From Sycon ciliatum (taxonomy: Eukaryota > Porifera > Calcarea > Leucosolenida > Sycettidae), in assembly GCF_964019385.1 (NCBI RefSeq), contig NC_088644.1, positions 42,899,192 to 42,963,191 on the forward strand: a stretch of DNA of 64,000 nucleotides, written 5' to 3'. The notes under the pieces were generated by a model. The model did not search any database. It was not told where the DNA came from and worked only from the letters and a program-made list of their open reading frames with translations. Numbering within the stretch: the first letter of the stretch is position 1; each line of letters begins with the position of its first letter. Positions 254 to 63,180 of this stretch are shown here, piece by piece. Made by a program: the position numbers and the translations under genes.

Positions 254-973
254 TCATTCTCCGCCTCCATGTTCAAAGAACATGAAGTCAATAAGGAACA
301 GCGCTCCAAGCATGACACCCTTGATCTTCACGTCAAGATCCATTGGGAAACTGATGCCGAAGTTGTCGGCGTCCGTGAAAAATTCCTTGGTGAATCCCGA
401 CCACTGCTTTTGAATGAGGCCAACGTCCTGACCGTCCAAGGACCGGACGTGGAACTTCGGCGAGCAGGAGCAACCACTGCCGCACACCGGGGCGTGGATA
501 CGCAGCACATTCTGTTGACTCGCATCTTGAATCATGAACGTCGGATACAAGCAGGCGCACTTCTCCGTCGTCACGTAGCCGATGATGTTACCTGGAGGGG
601 CCTCCACCTCCATATACGGACGCCAGTCGGCGCAGCAGCAGCTGGAGTCGCATCGGAGAGGACGCTGCATGCACATCACCTCTTTGCCAGCGTTGTCGAG
701 GATGCTCATTTTGAACTCTCTGGCAGAGCCACAGCACTGGCGTTGGCAGCACTCGGACACCTCTGCAGCGAAGTACACTTGCTGACCAAGGGTGTTCTTC
801 ACCACGTATTTGTTTGCCTGCTCCCAACCAGTAAGGACCTCAAGAAGCTCGATTTTCTGATGAACAAGAAGCTGATCGATTTGCATCATGTATTCGAGAC
901 CTGGAGGACAGTTGGCTGGTGCCTCAGGAACTGGCATCCATTGGACTTCGCCTTTAGCTGGGGGCGCAGCCAT
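254..973 (-). CDS. PLSCR: phospholipid scramblase (PLSCR family), intact single-exon ORF
   Basis: The product is a 239-residue phospholipid scramblase. This family moves phospholipids between the two leaflets of the plasma membrane in response to Ca2+, and some members also bind DNA. The family core runs from about residue 24 to 234. Cysteine clusters at 75-81, 108-114 and 164-170 resemble the palmitoylation region. The EF-hand-like Ca2+ loop DADNFGISFPMD is at 201-212, directly followed by the C-terminal hydrophobic helix (about 216-233, ending FLIDFMFFE). The N-terminus is short and only mildly proline-rich (MAAPP...PVPEAPANCPP), so the protein is shorter than vertebrate PLSCR1. The ATG at 973 is followed by G and preceded in frame by stops, so it is the likely start. 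The whole domain is uninterrupted, so the gene is intronless or a functional retrocopy. No poly(A) tract or target duplication is visible. The 348-aa plus-strand ORF over the same DNA is its antisense shadow. Confidence 0.95.
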   Translation of the reverse strand: MAAPPAKGEVQWMPVPEAPANCPPGLEYMMQIDQLLVHQKIELLEVLTGWEQANKYVVKNTLGQQVYFAAEVSECCQRQCCGSAREFKMSILDNAGKEVMCMQRPLRCDSSCCCADWRPYMEVEAPPGNIIGYVTTEKCACLYPTFMIQDASQQNVLRIHAPVCGSGCSCSPKFHVRSLDGQDVGLIQKQWSGFTKEFFTDADNFGISFPMDLDVKIKGVMLGALFLIDFMFFEHGGGE

Positions 974-10776: not shown

Positions 10777-10784
10777 ATGACGAT

Positions 10785-10821
10785 CAGGGAGTAGTACAAT
10801 ACGGTATTGTACTACTCCCTG
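10785..10821. mobile_element. 37-bp palindromic nano-MITE, copy 1
   Basis: A palindrome starting CAGGGAGTAGTACAATAC and ending in its exact complement, with a 1-nt centre. It is flanked by the perfect 8-bp direct repeat ATGACGAT (10777-10784 and 10822-10829). The CAGGG terminus plus the 8-bp duplication are hAT hallmarks. Copies 2 and 3 are at 29891 and 26670. No coding is possible, so it would have to be mobilised in trans. Confidence 0.9.
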
Positions 10822-10829
10822 ATGACGAT

Positions 10830-26661: not shown

Positions 26662-26669
26662 GTTTACGT

Positions 26670-26706
26670 CAGGGAGTCGTAAAATACCATATTTTACGAC
26701 TCCCTG
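26670..26706. mobile_element. 37-bp palindromic nano-MITE, copy 3
   Basis: Starts CAGGGAGTCGTAAAATA, a 3-nt centre, then the exact complement ending CCCTG. Flanked by the perfect 8-bp duplication GTTTACGT (26662-26669, 26707-26714). Confidence 0.9.
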
Positions 26707-26759
26707 GTTTACGTCTCCCGTGAGTTCTTCGTCTCAGATCGTTGTCGAAATCCAACCTA

Positions 26760-29882: not shown

Positions 29883-29890
29883 GTGTACAT

Positions 29891-29928
29891 CAGGGAGTCG
29901 TCAAATACCGGTATTTGACGACTCCCTG
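29891..29928. mobile_element. 38-bp palindromic nano-MITE, copy 2
   Basis: Starts CAGGGAGTCGTCAAATACC and is followed without spacer by its exact complement. Flanked by the perfect 8-bp duplication GTGTACAT (29883-29890, 29929-29936). Confidence 0.9.
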
Positions 29929-29936
29929 GTGTACAT

Positions 29937-48261: not shown

Positions 48262-49119
48262 TATTGGGCAGGCATAGTGGGATGGTCTAAGACCATGATT
48301 GAGAAACAGAGGGTACCAGGTTCAAGTCCTGCTTGGAAGCGGAAGGAATTTTTCCAGCCGTGCTGCGACCCACAGTTTTTTGGGAACTTGTGGCCTGGCA
48401 CGAGGGTAACATGGATGCAGCTAATGGGATTTCGGTCTTTATCCACTTGGTGGTGGGTCTGAGCTACTCACCTCCCACCGTTTAGGCGCTAGCGCTGCAT
48501 CTGCGCCTTTGATCCTGGAGGGTGGTGGCGTTCCCACGACGGATGCGGAAAACTGGGCTTCCAGCCGAGTCTCACGCGACCCGTGAATTTTTTTTTTTTA
48601 ATTTAGGCCACACCAAGTTTTTTCATTGTTTCTCGTCACCGCGCGCGTACCTTTCTTGAGGATTGGACCAAAAAAAAATCTCGCGTCCCGGTAAACACGC
48701 ATAAAAAAGGCGTTGTAAAAGTACGCGCGGCGTCAAATCTGGAGTGCAGTGCTAGTGCACGAACCGAAGGACGACTTTTGCACCGTGTATGTACGCATAC
48801 CATAATTTTAGCACAAGCGCGCACTTGGCTGTTCTTTTATGTACCCCTTGTATAATAACTTTGGTTTGCTTTCTTTCCTATTTAAATAACATGCAACACT
48901 GGACTTCCTCACCAGAGGCCGGTGCAGGAGCCTGGTTTTCTGGCTGTATGTTGCAATTGACTGTCACACGTGGTGTATAGTCTGATTTTAGGTCATAAAT
49001 TGGGCCTTTGTAGTGTAAATAGCAGTTTTTGTTTTTCAAACCCTATTTTGTTTTTTCCGCCCGCGTTCCTTTTGAGATTTTCAGGTGACGAGAAACAATG
49101 AAATAACTTGGTGTGGCCT
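48262..49119 (+). mobile_element. tRNA-derived SINE, split by a MITE
   Basis: Flanked by the 10-bp duplication TAGATATTGA (48252-48261 and 49120-49129). Copy 2 of the LINE shows the empty site. A tRNA-like head holds an A-box-like GGCATAGTGGGATGG (48271-48284) and a B box GGTTCAAGTCC (48319-48329). The body ends in a T-rich tail (48588-48600). The MITE at 48606 sits in the last bases of the tail. Confidence 0.8.
48606..49118. mobile_element. 513-bp Harbinger-type MITE (TTA duplication)
   Basis: Inverted ends GGCCACACCAAGTT...CATTGTTTCTCGTCACC, nearly perfect over about 36 bp, with TTA on both sides (48603-48605, 49119-49121). No coding. Confidence 0.88.
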
Positions 49120-52993: not shown

Positions 52994-55900
52994 GGTTGGC
53001 AATTCTGAGGCTCTTGGTTTGCTTGGTTGACTTGGTTGCTGGAGAGGAACTGAGAAGCTTGACTTGGCTGGCGCTGCTGTCTGTTGCTGTTCGGTGGAGT
53101 GGTCATCACATTTTATCCTTTGGAGGCACCCAATGGCCACCCAATGGCCAGTGTTAGACCAGTGAGGAGAGGAGTGTGACTGCCTTGCTGCTGGAGGCAG
53201 TTTCTGACACGATTGGTGACTCTGGTCGTACAGTCCTGATGCAGTCGTCACCTCAGTCATCCTCACACCTCCTATCCCTGCCAGTTCTGTCGTGATGCCG
53301 TGCTGCAACTGCCAGATTGGTCGCAAATGTGTTAGATGCAGATGTGTTCGTGCGAAGAAGCGCTGTGTGGACTGCTACCCTGGTAGAGCTACCCCTAGCC
53401 TTTGTCACAACCAAACTGAATCCATCGCCTCACAGCCTGCTGGTGCTGTTGGCGCTGGTATTGTGGTCAGTGGTGGTGGAGGATGTTCAGCCAGCCAGCC
53501 ATCTCAGCGAAACATATCACCGGAGGATAGCTCTGATGAATCCACTGCATCTGCAGATGAGGGTTGTGGCAGTGGCAGGCGCGATGTCGACTCCTGGCTG
53601 CGTGTAGATCACCCACTTGGGATTCATCCCAGCTCTGATTCCTCGCCATTCCCCCCAAGTGACATAGTCGAGTGCGGTCTAGCCAGCGCGGTGCCATGTT
53701 GTCGCTGCCAAGCAGGGGGTACGTGCATACGATGCGCTTGTGTCAGGGCTGGCAGAGTTTGTAGTAACTGCTATCCTGGGAGGGGTCGACTTGGCACCTG
53801 TCGTAATGTTGCTTCGGTGCCTGGGGTCCCGAGCTCTCAGCCCCAGATTATTCAGAGTGGCACCTCTGCTGCAACTGCATTGATTCCGACAGCATCTCAG
53901 GTTGACTTGCTTACCAGTTTGGAGGAATCTGACTCTGGTGCGCCACTGATGAGTGTGGATTCGGGCGCTGGGGGTACTGTACAACAGGCAGTGCATGGGG
54001 AGGATGACTCACGGTCCACTCTTATCTCATCCCAACCCCAGCTATGCCCATCTACGGGGAATATCGATTTGCAGGCTACGGGTTCTGGGCATGCGGATGT
54101 GGATCCATTTTCGCAGGTGCTTGGCTCGAGCCAGCCGGACGCTGCCTCTCCAGTTCCCACCACCCCTCGGGTCTCCATGCCTTTTGACATGGCTGACATC
54201 TATCAGGAGGTGGCGAGTTGGGAAAAGAACCTCTTCCGGGCTCCGACCGGCAGTGTTGGCAAAGAGTTTGTTCGGACACTCACGTCAGAACTTCAAAAGT
54301 TCAATTCGTCCCGAGGAGCGGAAGCCACTGCTCTATATCGTTTCTTCCTGCTTCCAGCGTTGGTGCTCCAGCGAGTAGGTCGGAATTGCCCTGCCGCAGA
54401 GTGCTCTGACCACACTCGTCGCAGACTAAATTTATGGATCCAGGGTTCCTATATGGAGCTAGTGCAGGAGGGTCGAACTATTCAGCATATGCTCAAGACA
54501 TCGCAGAATCGGAGATCCAGGCGTGGCGAAGACCCTGCTCATGAGTTTGGCCACTTGATGGAACAGGGCCGAGTTCACTGCGCACTGAGAATGCTGGATA
54601 ATGCAACCAAGCCCAAGTGTGATAAACCGGTCTTGGGCATGGACGACATCATTTCTGATTCTCATCAATCCCAGTCAGTCCGTGAAATTCTCGTCGGGAA
54701 GCATCCGGGGTCGGCACCGGCAGCACCGGACATCCTGCTTCAGGAGGAGGCGGGCAATGTCAGCAGTATCTACTTCGCCAGCGTCAATGGTGAGTTGATC
54801 AAACGCACTGCCCTTTCTCTGCACGGTTCTGCGGGTCCTTCCGGCCTGGACGCGGATGCTTGGCGGCGGCTATGCACATGTTACAAAGGTGCATCTACTG
54901 ATCTGCGTGAGGCAGTGGCGTGCTTCACACGCTTGATCTGTACCGACTCAGTCCCCTCCGGCTCACTCACACCGTACACAGCTTGCAGACTCATTGCCCT
55001 CAACAAGAACCCTGGCGTTCGGCCAATAGGGGTATGTGAAGTGTTTCGTAGACTGTGCTCCAAGGCGGCATTGTTTCTGATGAAACCCGACATTATGCAA
55101 GCCTGCGGACCAGTTCAGGCCTGCACGGGCATCCCGGCTGGGGTGGAGGCTATGGTGCACTCAATGACGGCTGCCTTTGCTTCGGAAAAGGCTGAGGCAG
55201 TGTTGCTAGTCGATGCTCGCAATGCCTTCAATAGCTTGAATCGCCGCGCTGCATTGCACAATATTGCTCGAGTATGCCCCCCGCTAGCACAAATAACATT
55301 GAATACTTACCAAGACCCTGCATCCCTCTTTGTGCGTGGTGGCCAGTCTTTATTGTCACAGGAGGGCACAACCCAGGGTGACCCTCTTGCGATGGCCATT
55401 TATGCCACGGCTCTCACCCCTCTCGTCAAGTCAGTCGGAACCAATGTTGCAGATGTGTGCCAGGGATGGTTTGCAGATGACTCGGCAGCTGCCGGAGGGC
55501 TCTCCCCATTGCGAAAGTGGTACAACCTCCTTAAGGAAGAGGGCCAAAAATACGGCTACAACATCAACGAAACAAAAACGCAACTACTCGTCAAGCCTGG
55601 CTTTGAGTCCTTGGCTGCCGAGACTTTTGGTGACACAACTATCCACGTCAAGTCTCGTGGCGTACAGTATCTGGGCGCTGCTATCGGGACTGAGGCATTC
55701 CTCGGAGAATTCAAAGAGACAAAAGTAGAAGAGTGGGTGAAACATACAGAGATTTTGGCAAATTATGCCGCATCAGAGCCGCATGCAGCATACTCTGCGT
55801 TGACCCATGGCTTAGTCAACAGATGGAACTATGTGTTTCGAACTATGGCTGTTTCTGCGGAGGACTTGGCGCCGTTGGAGCGGGAGCTTCACTCCTCACT

Positions 55901-57423
55901 TCTACCGGAGCTCGTGGGACAACCGAGCGTGCCTCTGAAAGACATTGATATTCTAAAGCTCCCGACACGGGATGGTGGGATGGCCCTTCCGGACCTCACG
56001 ACTCGACCACGGTTTGAGCACCAGGGCTCCAAGCAAGTGTCCGGACCTATGGTGAAGGAGGTTCTGGGCGATTTCGCTAAGGATAGCGATCCAATTTCTC
56101 TCGCTGGAGATGTGCCGGCTTCTGCAGATACTGCTGACCGTGGTGGAGCGTCTCCCACTCCCACGATGACGGCAACGGAGGTGCAGCCGCGGGAGGTCGC
56201 TGGCAACTCAAACCCTGGACCGGATGTGGCTGCTGATGTTGCTGGTGCTGGTACCCCCTTTCAGAGGATGATCGATGAAATGCGTCACAAAAAGCGTGTC
56301 GTCCACACCGAAAACCGGGAGCGCGCAAAGGCAGCCAGGAACAAAATAGTGGACACGAGCGATGAGATGACGAAGCGACGAATAGAAGAACACACGGAGA
56401 AAGGATCATCCTCATGGCTGAGCGTGCTGCCCCTGGCGGAGCATGGCTTTCGTCTCACCAAGCGTGACTTCCGGGATGCTCTGGCATTGAGATATGCATG
56501 GCCGCTAGCCAATACACCAGCAACCTGTGTGTGTGGTGAGCTGTTCTCAGTTGAGCATCAGCTATGTTGCGCCAGGGGCGGCTTCCCGACACTTCGTCAT
56601 AACGAGATACGTGACCTGCTGGCGAGGGAATTGACTGAAGTCTGCACAGCCGTTTCGACAGAACCAGCGCTGCAACCTCTTTCTGGTGAGAGGTTTCCTC
56701 TTCGGTCAACGAACCGCCGAGAGGATGCGCGCCTGGACATAGCCGCTCGAGGGTTTTGGACCCGTGGGGAGGAAGCTTTTTTTGATGTAAGGGTATTTTG
56801 CCCAGATGCTCCTTCCTACGGGTCCAGAACCCTTCCTGCATTGTACCAGCAGCACGAGCGGCGTAAGTGGAACGAATATGGGCCAAGAGTCACAAATGTA
56901 GAAAGAGCCGCTTTCACACCTCTCGTGTTCTCTGTGCATGGTGGTTGTGGGAGGCTGTGCAATGTGTTCCTCAAGAGACTGTGCCAGATGCAGGCCGAGT
57001 CATCGGGATCTCACTATTCCCAGGTCATTGGTTTACTCCGCTGTCGGCTGTCTTTTGCTTTGCTGCGTGCTGCTGTGTTGTGCATACGTGGGGCTCGGTC
57101 ACGGTACCACCATCCGGCGAGATGTTTTCATGATGTCTCGATTGCCGTGGCCGAGTCAGGTCTAGTTTGTTAAGTATCGTGCTGTGTCCTGACTGTGCAT
57201 GTGGGATTGGTATGGCGCTTACCCTTTTGTTGCTGTTTTGTTGCTTTCATGCCTTTAAGCATGTAATTGTGTTCAATTGTTGTATTTCATGGAAAAACGA
57301 TCTTTGCGTTGGATTCATTTAAACTATTATTTGTGTAGGGTTCCACTCCTTCATCTTGGGAAATTGTGTTTTGTTTGCCCAAAGAAGTGGCTTCATCATC
57401 ATCAAAAAAAAAAAAAAAAAAAA

Positions 57424-59690: not shown

Positions 59691-60122
59691 GGAGGTTTCG
59701 CTCTACGGAATTACGTATGAAAATAACGTAGGAACCGCACGTAATTTTCATACGTAAAAATCAGAGCTGTTGGGTTTCGCTCTACGTGATTTCTCCACGA
59801 CTGCTAAACAGGCCTAGTTGCTTGGAGACGCGTTGGCTGCATGCGCCCACCGCATGCACTACGAACCGAAACCGCGTTTTCCATCTTATTTTGCACGTGG
59901 TGTACGGTGTGTGTACCTTGTGTTTCGCGCGGCTTGAACTTTGCCCTGGATAAATCCGGAAAATTCGAAAAAATATTTCAAAAAGTCCTACGGAGGACCC
60001 AACGTAGGAAAGAGCTTTCCTACGGAGATCCGTAGAGAGATTTACGTATGAAAGTTGCCCTCGCTCCCCGGCGCGTACGACATACGGATTTTCATACGTA
60101 ATTACGTAGAGCGAAACCTCCC
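59690..60122. mobile_element. 433-bp MITE with TA duplication, GGGAGGTTTCGCTCTACG termini
   Basis: Inverted ends GGGAGGTTTCGCTCTACG followed by AATTACGTATGAAAAT, nearly perfect over 35 bp. TA on both sides (59688-59689, 60123-60124), as for Tc1/mariner. The interior repeats TACG-rich words. It lies directly after the stop codon of the host gene. Confidence 0.9.
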
Positions 60123-60183
60123 TAATAGCACAAGCAGGAGATGCAGTATAGTTCGAACGAAATTTGAATTTTCGAAATTGAAG

Positions 60184-63180
60184 ATGAAGGCGAAGAGAAA
60201 GTTGGGACGGCGGAGGCTTCTTGTCGCGAGCTGGAATGTGCAGTCACTAGTTGAGAGCACAGGAGATGCTCGGATTTGCCGTAAGGTGCCATCTGCTGCT
60301 AAGCGAGTCGATCGCGGCTTGGATTTCTTGTCGGAGGAATTACGAAAATTTGAAATTGGTGTAGCTGGTATACAAGAAACCAAGTGGTTTGGAAGTGATG
60401 TCTGGCCTGTCGGCGCTTGCACTTTTGTTCATTCCGGGAGGCCCTTTCCGGCCGACGGTGAAACAGCTCGGCGTGACGAGGGCGTTGGGATTTGGATGGG
60501 GCCTGACATGACATCGCCCTGGAGGAGAGGCGGCGAACAGTGGAACGCGATCAGTTCACGTATCGCCACAGCTCGCTTTCTAGTCGGCATGAAGGGAGAC
60601 AAGCTCCAGCGTGGTGGCCAGCGATATTCTGACCAGTATCTGACAATTGTAAACGTGTATGCACCAACTAGCAAGGCGACTCGAGCAGTGAAGGATAAAT
60701 TCTTTCGAGACTTGCAAGATGCCCTTCATCATGTGAACAAAAATGATGTCATGGTCCTTCTAGGAGATTTCAACGCTCGCGTCGGTTCATTGTCACTTGC
60801 AGATCCTTCTGATGAGCGCCCACTGTGGGACCAGGTACTAGGACAGTTTGGCCTCGGTCAATGCAACCAGGCTGGGGAAGATCTGCTGTCTTTTTGTGCC
60901 AGGAACTCTCTCTGCGTAATGAACACCTGGTTTCGCAAGAGACCTTTTCGGCGCGGCACTTGGACACACCCTGCGACACGACAACAGCATCTGATTGACT
61001 ATGTCATACTACGACAAGACCAACGTGTATTCTGTCAGGATGTTACGGTGATGCGCGGTGCATCGTTCTGGACGGATCATTGTATGGTGCGGAGTAAGCT
61101 GGCACTGGATTTCTCCCGCCCACGCAAGTCGCAGTCAGCTCCACGCCGACTGGCGGTGCACAACCTGCATGATAGTGACATCCGGAAGGAATTTCAGACC
61201 AAGCTGGATGATGTGCTTGGAAATGGTCCTGGCCTGCAGCAAGAGTCACCTGGGGATGACACCATTGACTCGTCTTGGTCTCGCGTTCGTGATCCGCTTA
61301 TATCGGCTTCTTCATCAGTCCTGGGATATAAGCGCCGTGCCCAGCCGGATTGGTTCCTTGAGAGTCGTGATGAGCTGGAACCGCTCATTCAGGAGAAGAA
61401 CAAACACCACCAGATCTTGCTAGCCAATGACACCCGCCAAAACCGTCAGGTCTTCAGGAGACACCAGCGACTTGTTGCAAAGGCAGTGCGGGATGCAAAG
61501 GACAGATGGGTCATGAAGACTGCGCGTCATGCAGAAGAGGCCAAGAAAGATGGTCGTACTCGGTGGCGCTGCATAAACATGTTGCAGGGTGTTCATGTCG
61601 GGAGGAAATCAACTGCTACATCATCTGTTCTCGATGAGAATGGGAATGCTACGCCAGATATTGACTCTACCCGAGCCAGATTCGGTCGGCATTTCGAGCG
61701 TGTTCTGAATGTTCCCTCGGAGTTTAATGCTGATGTTGTGAATTCCATGCCGGAGCTGGAGGTGCGAGAGGATCTAGATACTGTACCAGCATTTGAGGAA
61801 CTCCAACATGCCTTAGGTAACATGAAGCGAGGCACTGCAGCTGGTCAATCTGGCATCCTCCCGGAACTTGTGCTTTGTGGAGGTGAAGTTCTTCAGCGTC
61901 GCATTCATGAGCTGATGGTGCAGGTATGGTCATCTGGATGCGTCCCCGGTGATTGGCGAGATGCGCAAATTGTCCCCATCCCCAAGAAAGGTAATCTTCG
62001 CGTGTGTGACAACTGGCGTGGCATCAGTCTGCTGGACGTCGTAGGCAAGCTGTTCGCGCGGATCATCCAGGATCGTCTTGAGGAGATCGCCGAGGACATT
62101 CTGCCGGACACGCAATGTGGTTTCCACAAGGGACGTGGCTGCTTAGATATGGTTTTTGTTGCTCGGCAGTTTGTGGAGAAAACCATCGAACAGCTTGTGG
62201 AGAAAGCCATCGAACATGAGTCGAACTTGTACGTCCTTTTCGTAGACTTGCGAAAGGCTTATGACTCTATCCCCCGTGCTGGTTTGTGGTTGGTCCTGGA
62301 GAAATGCGGTGTTCCTCCAAAGATGTTGTCATTGATCCAGTCTCTGCATAATGGTATGCTCGCCCATGTTCGTGTCGACAATGGCAGGTCGTCGGAATTT
62401 GAGGTCCGCAATGGTTTGCGTCAAGGATGCACACTTGCTCCTATTATGTTTAACATATATTTCGCAGCTGTTGTGGCCCACTGCCACTGGCGGTCGATCT
62501 CCGCTGTTCCTGGCTTTCCACTGCGCTATCGTTTGGGTCGCAAGCTCGTCGGCGATCGCACAACCAAGAGTCGCCTTGAGCACCTTGACGTCACTGAGTC
62601 ACAGTTTGCCGACGATGCCGCACTGTACACCACCTCACATGAGAATCTGTGCACTATGGCCAATGAGTTCATCTCATGGGCGTCTGACTGGGGCCTGACT
62701 GTCAGTATCACCAAGACCAAGGCAATGTCGGTTGGACCAGGTCGAGTATGTGCAGATCTCCCTGTCCTCGGTGGTGATGACGTCATCAGTTGCCAGGATG
62801 ATTTCACCTACCTTGGAAGCAACATCAGTGGGGATGGTCAGCCGGATCATGAAATCGCATCCCGTTTGGCAAAGGCATCGCGTGCGTTTGGCAGCCTAAC
62901 GAACCCCATCTTCCGCAACACGTCACTGTCTCTTGGGACACGGCGCTATGTGTACCAAGCTTGCGTCTTGATGGTCCTGTTTTATGCATCAGAGAGCTGG
63001 ACGTTGAAGGCCCCGCAGCTACATCGCCTGGAGGTATTCCATCACCATTGCATCCGAGTGATTCTGGGTGTGTCTCGGGACCAGCAGTGGCAGGATCGCA
63101 TTTCTTCTGAGGAACTAGCCCGTCGTTTCGATATGCCGTCGTCAATGGCGGAGGTCGTACGCTGTCACCGCTTACGCTGA
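60184..63180 (+). CDS. LINE protein: APE endonuclease and reverse transcriptase, cut short by an in-frame TGA
   Basis: I start at ATG 60184 (MKAKRKLGRRRLLVASWNVQ) because the longer N-terminus from 60055 lies in the MITE. The endonuclease motifs are SWNVQSL, QETKWFG, VNVYAPTS, LLGDFNARVG, DYVILR and WTDHCMV. The RT motifs are A FVDLRKAYDSIPR, B NGLRQGCTLAPIMFN, C FADDAALYTTS and YLGSNISGDG. The frame meets TGA at 63178-63180, where the family has tryptophan (RLR-W-LGHLGRM), so TGG to TGA is likely. The same frame continues to 63483 through PKKRWRDIAAADL and a finger (CGCGRDFRRPNDLTRHRKYC), with a second TGA near 63356. All catalytic residues precede the first stop. Confidence 0.9.
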   Translation: MKAKRKLGRRRLLVASWNVQSLVESTGDARICRKVPSAAKRVDRGLDFLSEELRKFEIGVAGIQETKWFGSDVWPVGACTFVHSGRPFPADGETARRDEGVGIWMGPDMTSPWRRGGEQWNAISSRIATARFLVGMKGDKLQRGGQRYSDQYLTIVNVYAPTSKATRAVKDKFFRDLQDALHHVNKNDVMVLLGDFNARVGSLSLADPSDERPLWDQVLGQFGLGQCNQAGEDLLSFCARNSLCVMNTWFRKRPFRRGTWTHPATRQQHLIDYVILRQDQRVFCQDVTVMRGASFWTDHCMVRSKLALDFSRPRKSQSAPRRLAVHNLHDSDIRKEFQTKLDDVLGNGPGLQQESPGDDTIDSSWSRVRDPLISASSSVLGYKRRAQPDWFLESRDELEPLIQEKNKHHQILLANDTRQNRQVFRRHQRLVAKAVRDAKDRWVMKTARHAEEAKKDGRTRWRCINMLQGVHVGRKSTATSSVLDENGNATPDIDSTRARFGRHFERVLNVPSEFNADVVNSMPELEVREDLDTVPAFEELQHALGNMKRGTAAGQSGILPELVLCGGEVLQRRIHELMVQVWSSGCVPGDWRDAQIVPIPKKGNLRVCDNWRGISLLDVVGKLFARIIQDRLEEIAEDILPDTQCGFHKGRGCLDMVFVARQFVEKTIEQLVEKAIEHESNLYVLFVDLRKAYDSIPRAGLWLVLEKCGVPPKMLSLIQSLHNGMLAHVRVDNGRSSEFEVRNGLRQGCTLAPIMFNIYFAAVVAHCHWRSISAVPGFPLRYRLGRKLVGDRTTKSRLEHLDVTESQFADDAALYTTSHENLCTMANEFISWASDWGLTVSITKTKAMSVGPGRVCADLPVLGGDDVISCQDDFTYLGSNISGDGQPDHEIASRLAKASRAFGSLTNPIFRNTSLSLGTRRYVYQACVLMVLFYASESWTLKAPQLHRLEVFHHHCIRVILGVSRDQQWQDRISSEELARRFDMPSSMAEVVRCHRLR

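Follow-up and report, generated by a model that had tools for sequence, protein, structure and literature searches.

How small can a eukaryotic DNA transposon be? The question is raised by a 64,000-nucleotide stretch of the genome of the calcareous sponge Sycon ciliatum (contig NC_088644.1, positions 42,899,192 to 42,963,191; the window, in what follows, is this whole stretch), in which an initial annotation made from the letters alone had noticed three dispersed palindromes of 37 to 38 bp, each lying between two copies of its own 8-bp repeat. The annotation took them for a mobile element of the hAT superfamily consisting of little more than two terminal repeats. Analysis of these palindromes and of their relatives across the genome indicates that they are probably minimal non-autonomous hAT-type transposons that are moved in trans.

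Three palindromes with 8-bp flanking repeats

Recomputation from the window placed the three palindromes, together with their exact and mutually different 8-bp flanking repeats, at precisely the positions claimed for them (Table 1). The arms are common to all three, as had been proposed, and the arm motif occurs six times in the window at up to three mismatches, against 0.11 expected (100 shuffles). When the window was scanned de novo for inverted repeats of up to 150 bp with 10-bp exact arms between identical 8-mers, copies 1 to 3 alone were retrieved. The chance of about 1 in 65,000 that had been attached to each 8-mer match does not hold for copy 1, whose 8-mer is weaker evidence than 1 in 65,536 because it adjoins a GATGATGAT run; overall, the argument from these matches is upheld by the family-wide duplication test given below.

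Table 1. Coordinates of the palindromic copies, of an empty site and of a reading frame in the window
Feature	Position	Strand	Description	Flanking repeat, each side
Copy 1	10777..10829	.	37-bp perfect palindrome 10785-10821, 0 arm mismatches, arms CAGGGAGTAGTACAATAC	ATGACGAT
Copy 2	26662..26714	.	37-bp palindrome 26670-26706, 1 arm mismatch, arms CAGGGAGTCGTAAAATA..	GTTTACGT
Copy 3	29883..29936	.	38-bp perfect palindrome 29891-29928, 0 mismatches, arms CAGGGAGTCGTCAAATACC	GTGTACAT
Empty-site copy of the dispersed repeat at L018, diverged	48389..48593	-	76% identity, 216 columns, 24 gap positions, alignment unbroken at the insertion point	
Scramblase frame	254-973	-	in the window	

Copy number and anatomy of the family

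The genome searched comprises 538 Mb in 313 contigs, the window lying on contig C2. The pattern CAGGGAGT-N20-30-ACTCCCTG (36-46 bp), which the initial annotation had proposed to count genome-wide, is found at 2,765 places, with a single place for a reversed-pattern control, and a 47-77 bp version of the same tip pair is found at 454 places (control 0), the palindrome counts thus covering lengths of 36-77 bp. The 19-bp end occurs 2,149 times in forward and 2,240 times in reverse orientation (control 0). All of these counts take in nested matches and copies inside larger duplicated repeats. Apparently, mobile elements of about 38 bp are present in the sponge genome in thousands of copies.

The terminal repeat has the 19-bp consensus CAGGGAGT[A/C]GT[A/C][A/C]AATACC. 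The modal length is 38 bp (28 of the 48 copies described in the next section), which corresponds to two 19-bp arms abutted at ACC/GGT without any interior, and some copies carry filler of 7, 9 or 15 bp between intact arms. Arm pairing was compared in one window copy and in 32 of the 50 listed places, all of 38 bp. Of these 33, 15 are perfect palindromes, whereas shuffled arm pairing produced at most 12 in 10,000 trials. At arm position 9 the 33 copies show C/C in 17 cases, A/A in 10, other combinations in 6 and the C/A pair in none. The arms do travel together, and shared descent of symmetric units suffices to explain their covariation.

Several loci depart from this simple form (L-numbers denote loci fetched from the genome). 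At L029:1993-2085 two elements, one of 45 bp and one of 24 bp, are arranged head to tail as GATAAAAC-element-GATAAAAC-element-GATAAAAC; the second, at 24 bp, is shorter still than the family norm. Double insertions of this head-to-tail kind are described as common for DNA transposons in an excerpt of PMC12368964, citing McGurk and Barbash. At L044:2071-2110 a 40-bp near-palindrome has the tip CAGGGAG, otherwise different arms and an exact GCCTAGGC on each side, and perhaps represents an independent origin of the same design. The CAGGGAGTGAATGCACC palindromes at L022:2001-2040 and L023:2001-2040 have flanks that are themselves inverted (TTTTTTGC/GCAAAAAA) and therefore look like the center of a larger palindromic repeat, not like simple insertions. 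At L016:6881-6912 a 7-bp repeat, CTACTGG, flanks a perfect palindrome of 32 bp whose arms are unrelated (CAAGAGTACATAAACC); this could be another tiny family or a product of chance.

Target duplications and target preference

Flanking duplications were scored in 48 copies, a non-random sample that comprises the three window copies and 45 of the 50 listed places, each of these 45 lying on contig C1 and having exact 8-bp tips. The initial annotation had expected 8-bp duplications at other genomic copies, and most of those examined do carry them: the flanking 8-mers are identical in 25 of 48 and differ by at most one base in 33 of 48 (one mismatch in 8 copies, two in 1, three or more in 14). Three pairs with common flanks (L010/L011, L022/L023 and L028/L030) are copies of one insertion each, and when such pairs are collapsed the duplications are exact in 25 of 45 and within one mismatch in 32 of 45. 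When the right flanks were re-dealt at random, no more than 3 of 48 matched exactly in any of 200 trials (range 0 to 3).

The exact duplications follow the consensus nTnnnnAn, with T at position 2 in 20 of 25 and A at position 7 in 21 of 25 (binomial p ~2e-8 and ~2e-9), and this is the target preference that a section of PMC10368747 gives for the hAT transposase Hermes. The repeats of copies 1 and 3 in the window match it, and that of copy 2 has G at position 7.

Duplication size was addressed by a scan of 335 kb of local sequence (8-bp arms, up to 100 bp, exact 8-mer flanks), in which 26 of 30 matches start with CAGGGAG. At other flank sizes the matches with this start numbered 0 of 18 for 6-mers, 1 of 4 for 7-mers, 0 of 0 for 9-mers and 0 of 8 for 10-mers, and 6 of these last 8 repeat the same elements, shifted inward by one base. 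Most of the 335 kb was chosen for holding the element, and the scan therefore shows duplication size, not family abundance. A looser tip scan retrieved 37 matches of up to 90 bp, against 1, 1, 0 and 4 for four scrambled-tip controls (2, 3, 0 and 10 for longer matches).

Empty sites

Comparison of 34 joined sites with the 335 kb of local sequence yielded three matches that span the join. Two of these belong to L018 and were accepted, and the third, for L020, was not counted because only ~14 bp lie left of the join. The 39-bp copy at L018:2001-2039 sits inside a dispersed repeat, between GTAGGAAC and ATAGGAAC; at L020 the same dispersed repeat is present without the element and runs unbroken through one ATAGGAAC, with 88% identity over 119 bp. 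Counting the more distant copy listed in Table 1, there are two paralogous empty sites for this insertion, a clean one at L020 and a diverged one in the window.

The proposal that the palindromes are mobile is thus supported by 8-bp duplications at most other copies and by one insertion with paralogous empty sites. Their affinity to hAT elements, proposed at the same time, agrees with the size of the duplication, the nTnnnnAn targets and the 19-bp ends. An origin by chance or from low-complexity sequence is ruled out by the family-wide duplications and the empty site.

Longer elements with the same ends

The family has longer relatives. At L005:3220-3649 lies a 430-bp element with the ends CAGGGAGTCGTAAA and an exact duplication, ATGCGGAT, whose left end reads CAGGGAGTCGTAAAATACCGGTATT, whose right end lacks a full 19-bp arm and whose longest stop-free frame is 129 codons. 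It was considered as common parent of the short copies and rejected, its left end being found at only 6 places genome-wide. Four left ends of this element lie within 2.5 kb on one strand at G000:C5:14413622-14416124, with two spacings of ~582 bp, possibly as a tandem array.

The pairing of ends was analyzed for the first 100 listed exact 19-bp ends. In 38 cases the ends make up 19 short pairs, 15 of which measure 38 bp, and another 23 belong to short palindromes whose second arm is imperfect. The remaining 39 are not part of any listed short palindrome, and some of these ends may have a tip-mutated partner. The 39 include five inward pairs 1.5-3.5 kb apart, which amount to four elements of 2148, 2231, 2544 or 2562, and 2169 bp; random placement of ends gave a mean of 0.08 inward pairs and a maximum of 2 (2,000 trials). 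These four long end pairs, on contig C1 at 863610-865757, 2697668-2699898, 5906592-5909153 and 9737057-9739225, are the best candidates for an autonomous partner. Inspection by eye of the open reading frame lists of the solo-end loci L025 and L034 revealed no obvious transposase, no family search being made.

Search for a transposase

The hAT dimerization domain has at least 150 matches in the genome (150 of 422 candidates scored), and among the matches listed no hAT-domain place falls inside the four long end pairs. Thirty transposase loci (L045-L074) of the 150 listed hAT matches were oriented along the gene and examined, and the transposase with matching termini that the initial annotation had suggested looking for was not found among them. 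Exact ACTCCCTG in right-end orientation is present only at L046, L048 and L049, which represent one duplicated stretch, 99.9% identical, where the motif lies ~340 bp beyond the boundary of that transposase family itself, and the best match to the 19-bp end at any of the 30 loci is 14/19. Where copies could be compared, the right tips are mostly of the CGTTTCACCCCTA-like or TAGGGGTGAAACG type or close variants of these; at L046, L056/L062 and L061/L065 the tip is unclear, and L045 ends short of it. The hAT families of these 30 loci are not supported as the partner. At L047, L050, L052 and L053, from ~2370 along the gene, repeats with a period of ~366 bp lie directly beside the right end of a hAT family.

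Origin of the 38-bp form

In the reading that we prefer, the 19-bp ends would be recognized by a hAT-type transposase whose gene lies elsewhere, perhaps within the elements of 2.1-2.6 kb that share these ends; the enzyme would excise the short unit and insert it at another place with an 8-bp duplication at nTnnnnAn. By analogy with the left end of Hermes, the palindromic center (AATACC/GGTATT) could be one binding site common to both ends: in a section of PMC10368747, the first 27 bp of that left end are described as containing two subterminal repeats, which together make a quasi-palindrome to which two BED domains bind. The palindrome may work via such a central site or via hairpin extrusion.

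Several observations weigh against movement of the short units. The flanking 8-mers differ at three or more positions in 14 of the 48 copies, among them L024, with a 7-bp match offset by one base, and the empty-site evidence concerns one insertion of the 34 compared. No transposase with CAGGGAGT ends emerged from the 30 loci examined of the 150 listed hAT matches. The best-studied hAT enzyme, Hermes, depends on ~220 bp at both ends, and symmetric donors made of two left ends have little activity and those made of two right ends none, according to other sections of PMC10368747. Ends of that kind are absent from the 38-bp symmetric copies, and the existence of long elements with the same ends, along with the 39 of 100 ends outside short palindromes, makes a collapse from long forms possible.

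Such a collapse, the main rival explanation, would have happened in place: longer hAT insertions would have made the 8-bp duplications, and repair following excision would have copied just a few bases inward from either end, linking the two ends back to back at a short shared sequence such as GGTATT, so that the 38-mer itself never moves. Long elements of the required kind exist, namely the 430-bp element with its exact duplication and the four long pairs (2.1-2.6 kb); the left end of the former, joined at GGTATT to the right arm GGTATTTTACGACTCCCTG, would yield exactly 38 bp, and the end requirements known for Hermes would be sidestepped. We nevertheless regard this route as unlikely, since the 430-bp left end is so rare in the genome and its right end is incomplete, since short pairs so far outnumber long ones (19 exact against 4 among the 100 ends), and since the double insertion at L029 is most simply explained by the insertion of short units. 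Movement of a hairpin or single strand, by cruciform extrusion of the palindrome in place of ordinary two-ended synapsis, would suit arms that change in step, and perfect symmetry at a length of 38 bp makes two-ended synapsis hard to picture. This route is very improbable, given that 8-bp duplications at nTnnnnAn are the mark of staggered double-strand hAT insertion (PMC10368747, in the section that gives the target preference) and that the present data hold no sign of hairpins. The common flanks of the three copy pairs would also be expected if the palindrome were an internal motif that spreads only with larger repeats or segmental duplications. That explanation has almost nothing left to recommend it, being contradicted on two counts: the other flanks examined are mutually unlike over 150 bp on each side, and every exact duplication is a different 8-mer, except for the pair shared at L029.

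We infer that the 38-mer moves, and the 38-bp form itself as the moving unit is the best reading. We incline, by a modest degree, to the stronger claim that perfectly symmetric units of 38 bp have been mobilized many hundreds to thousands of times by a hAT-type cut-and-paste transposase, in breach of the rule of long and asymmetric ends derived from Hermes.

Comparison with known elements

The tip of the maize element Ac is CAGGG. The Sycon units share with hAT elements of the Ac/Hermes type the 8-bp duplications, the nTnnnnAn targets and the short terminal repeats, but they are symmetric and 38 bp long, whereas autonomous hAT elements are kilobase-sized and the ends of Hermes are long and asymmetric. 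Their 19-bp arms fall within the 10-25 bp stated for hAT terminal inverted repeats in a passage of PMC3942097. With miniature inverted-repeat transposable elements (MITEs) of hAT origin they have in common that they are non-autonomous, bear terminal inverted repeats and target duplications and reach high copy number. They differ from them in having no interior and in a modal length of 38 bp, below the search range of 50-800 nt indicated for detectMITE in an excerpt of PMC4726161; elements this short escape such finders because the search starts at 50 nt.

Dispersed, transposon-related palindromes are also recorded for Caenorhabditis elegans and Anopheles in a portion of PMC3212995, where the MITE-like clusters of Anopheles measure 430-1678 nt, six of them being palindromic. 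Titles and opening lines of abstracts in the literature covered, a partial coverage with Repbase outside its scope and no proof of absence, contained neither hAT elements below 50 bp nor this repeat in Sycon. The bacterial REP/REPIN sequences are likewise very short dispersed palindromes moved in trans, but by a different class of enzyme, and they are not known to make 8-bp duplications.

Other features of the window

Besides the scramblase frame (Table 1), whose best match, at 88% identity, is a protein of Sycon ciliatum, the window contains two long open frames at 53292-57173 and 60055-63180, of 1293 and 1041 amino acids, which by eye resemble the reverse transcriptases of non-LTR (non-long terminal repeat) elements.

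Implications

An element of 38 bp is far shorter than what the best-studied hAT enzyme is known to move. Should the 38-bp unit prove to be mobile on its own, a hAT-type transposase would require no more of its substrate than two 19-bp ends, lacking both interior and asymmetry. Eukaryotic DNA transposons would then have a new lower size limit, and the needs of a eukaryotic transpososome would become testable with a donor the size of an oligonucleotide. For the sponge, the thousands of CAGGGAGT palindromes scattered through its genome are possible protein-binding or hairpin-forming sites.
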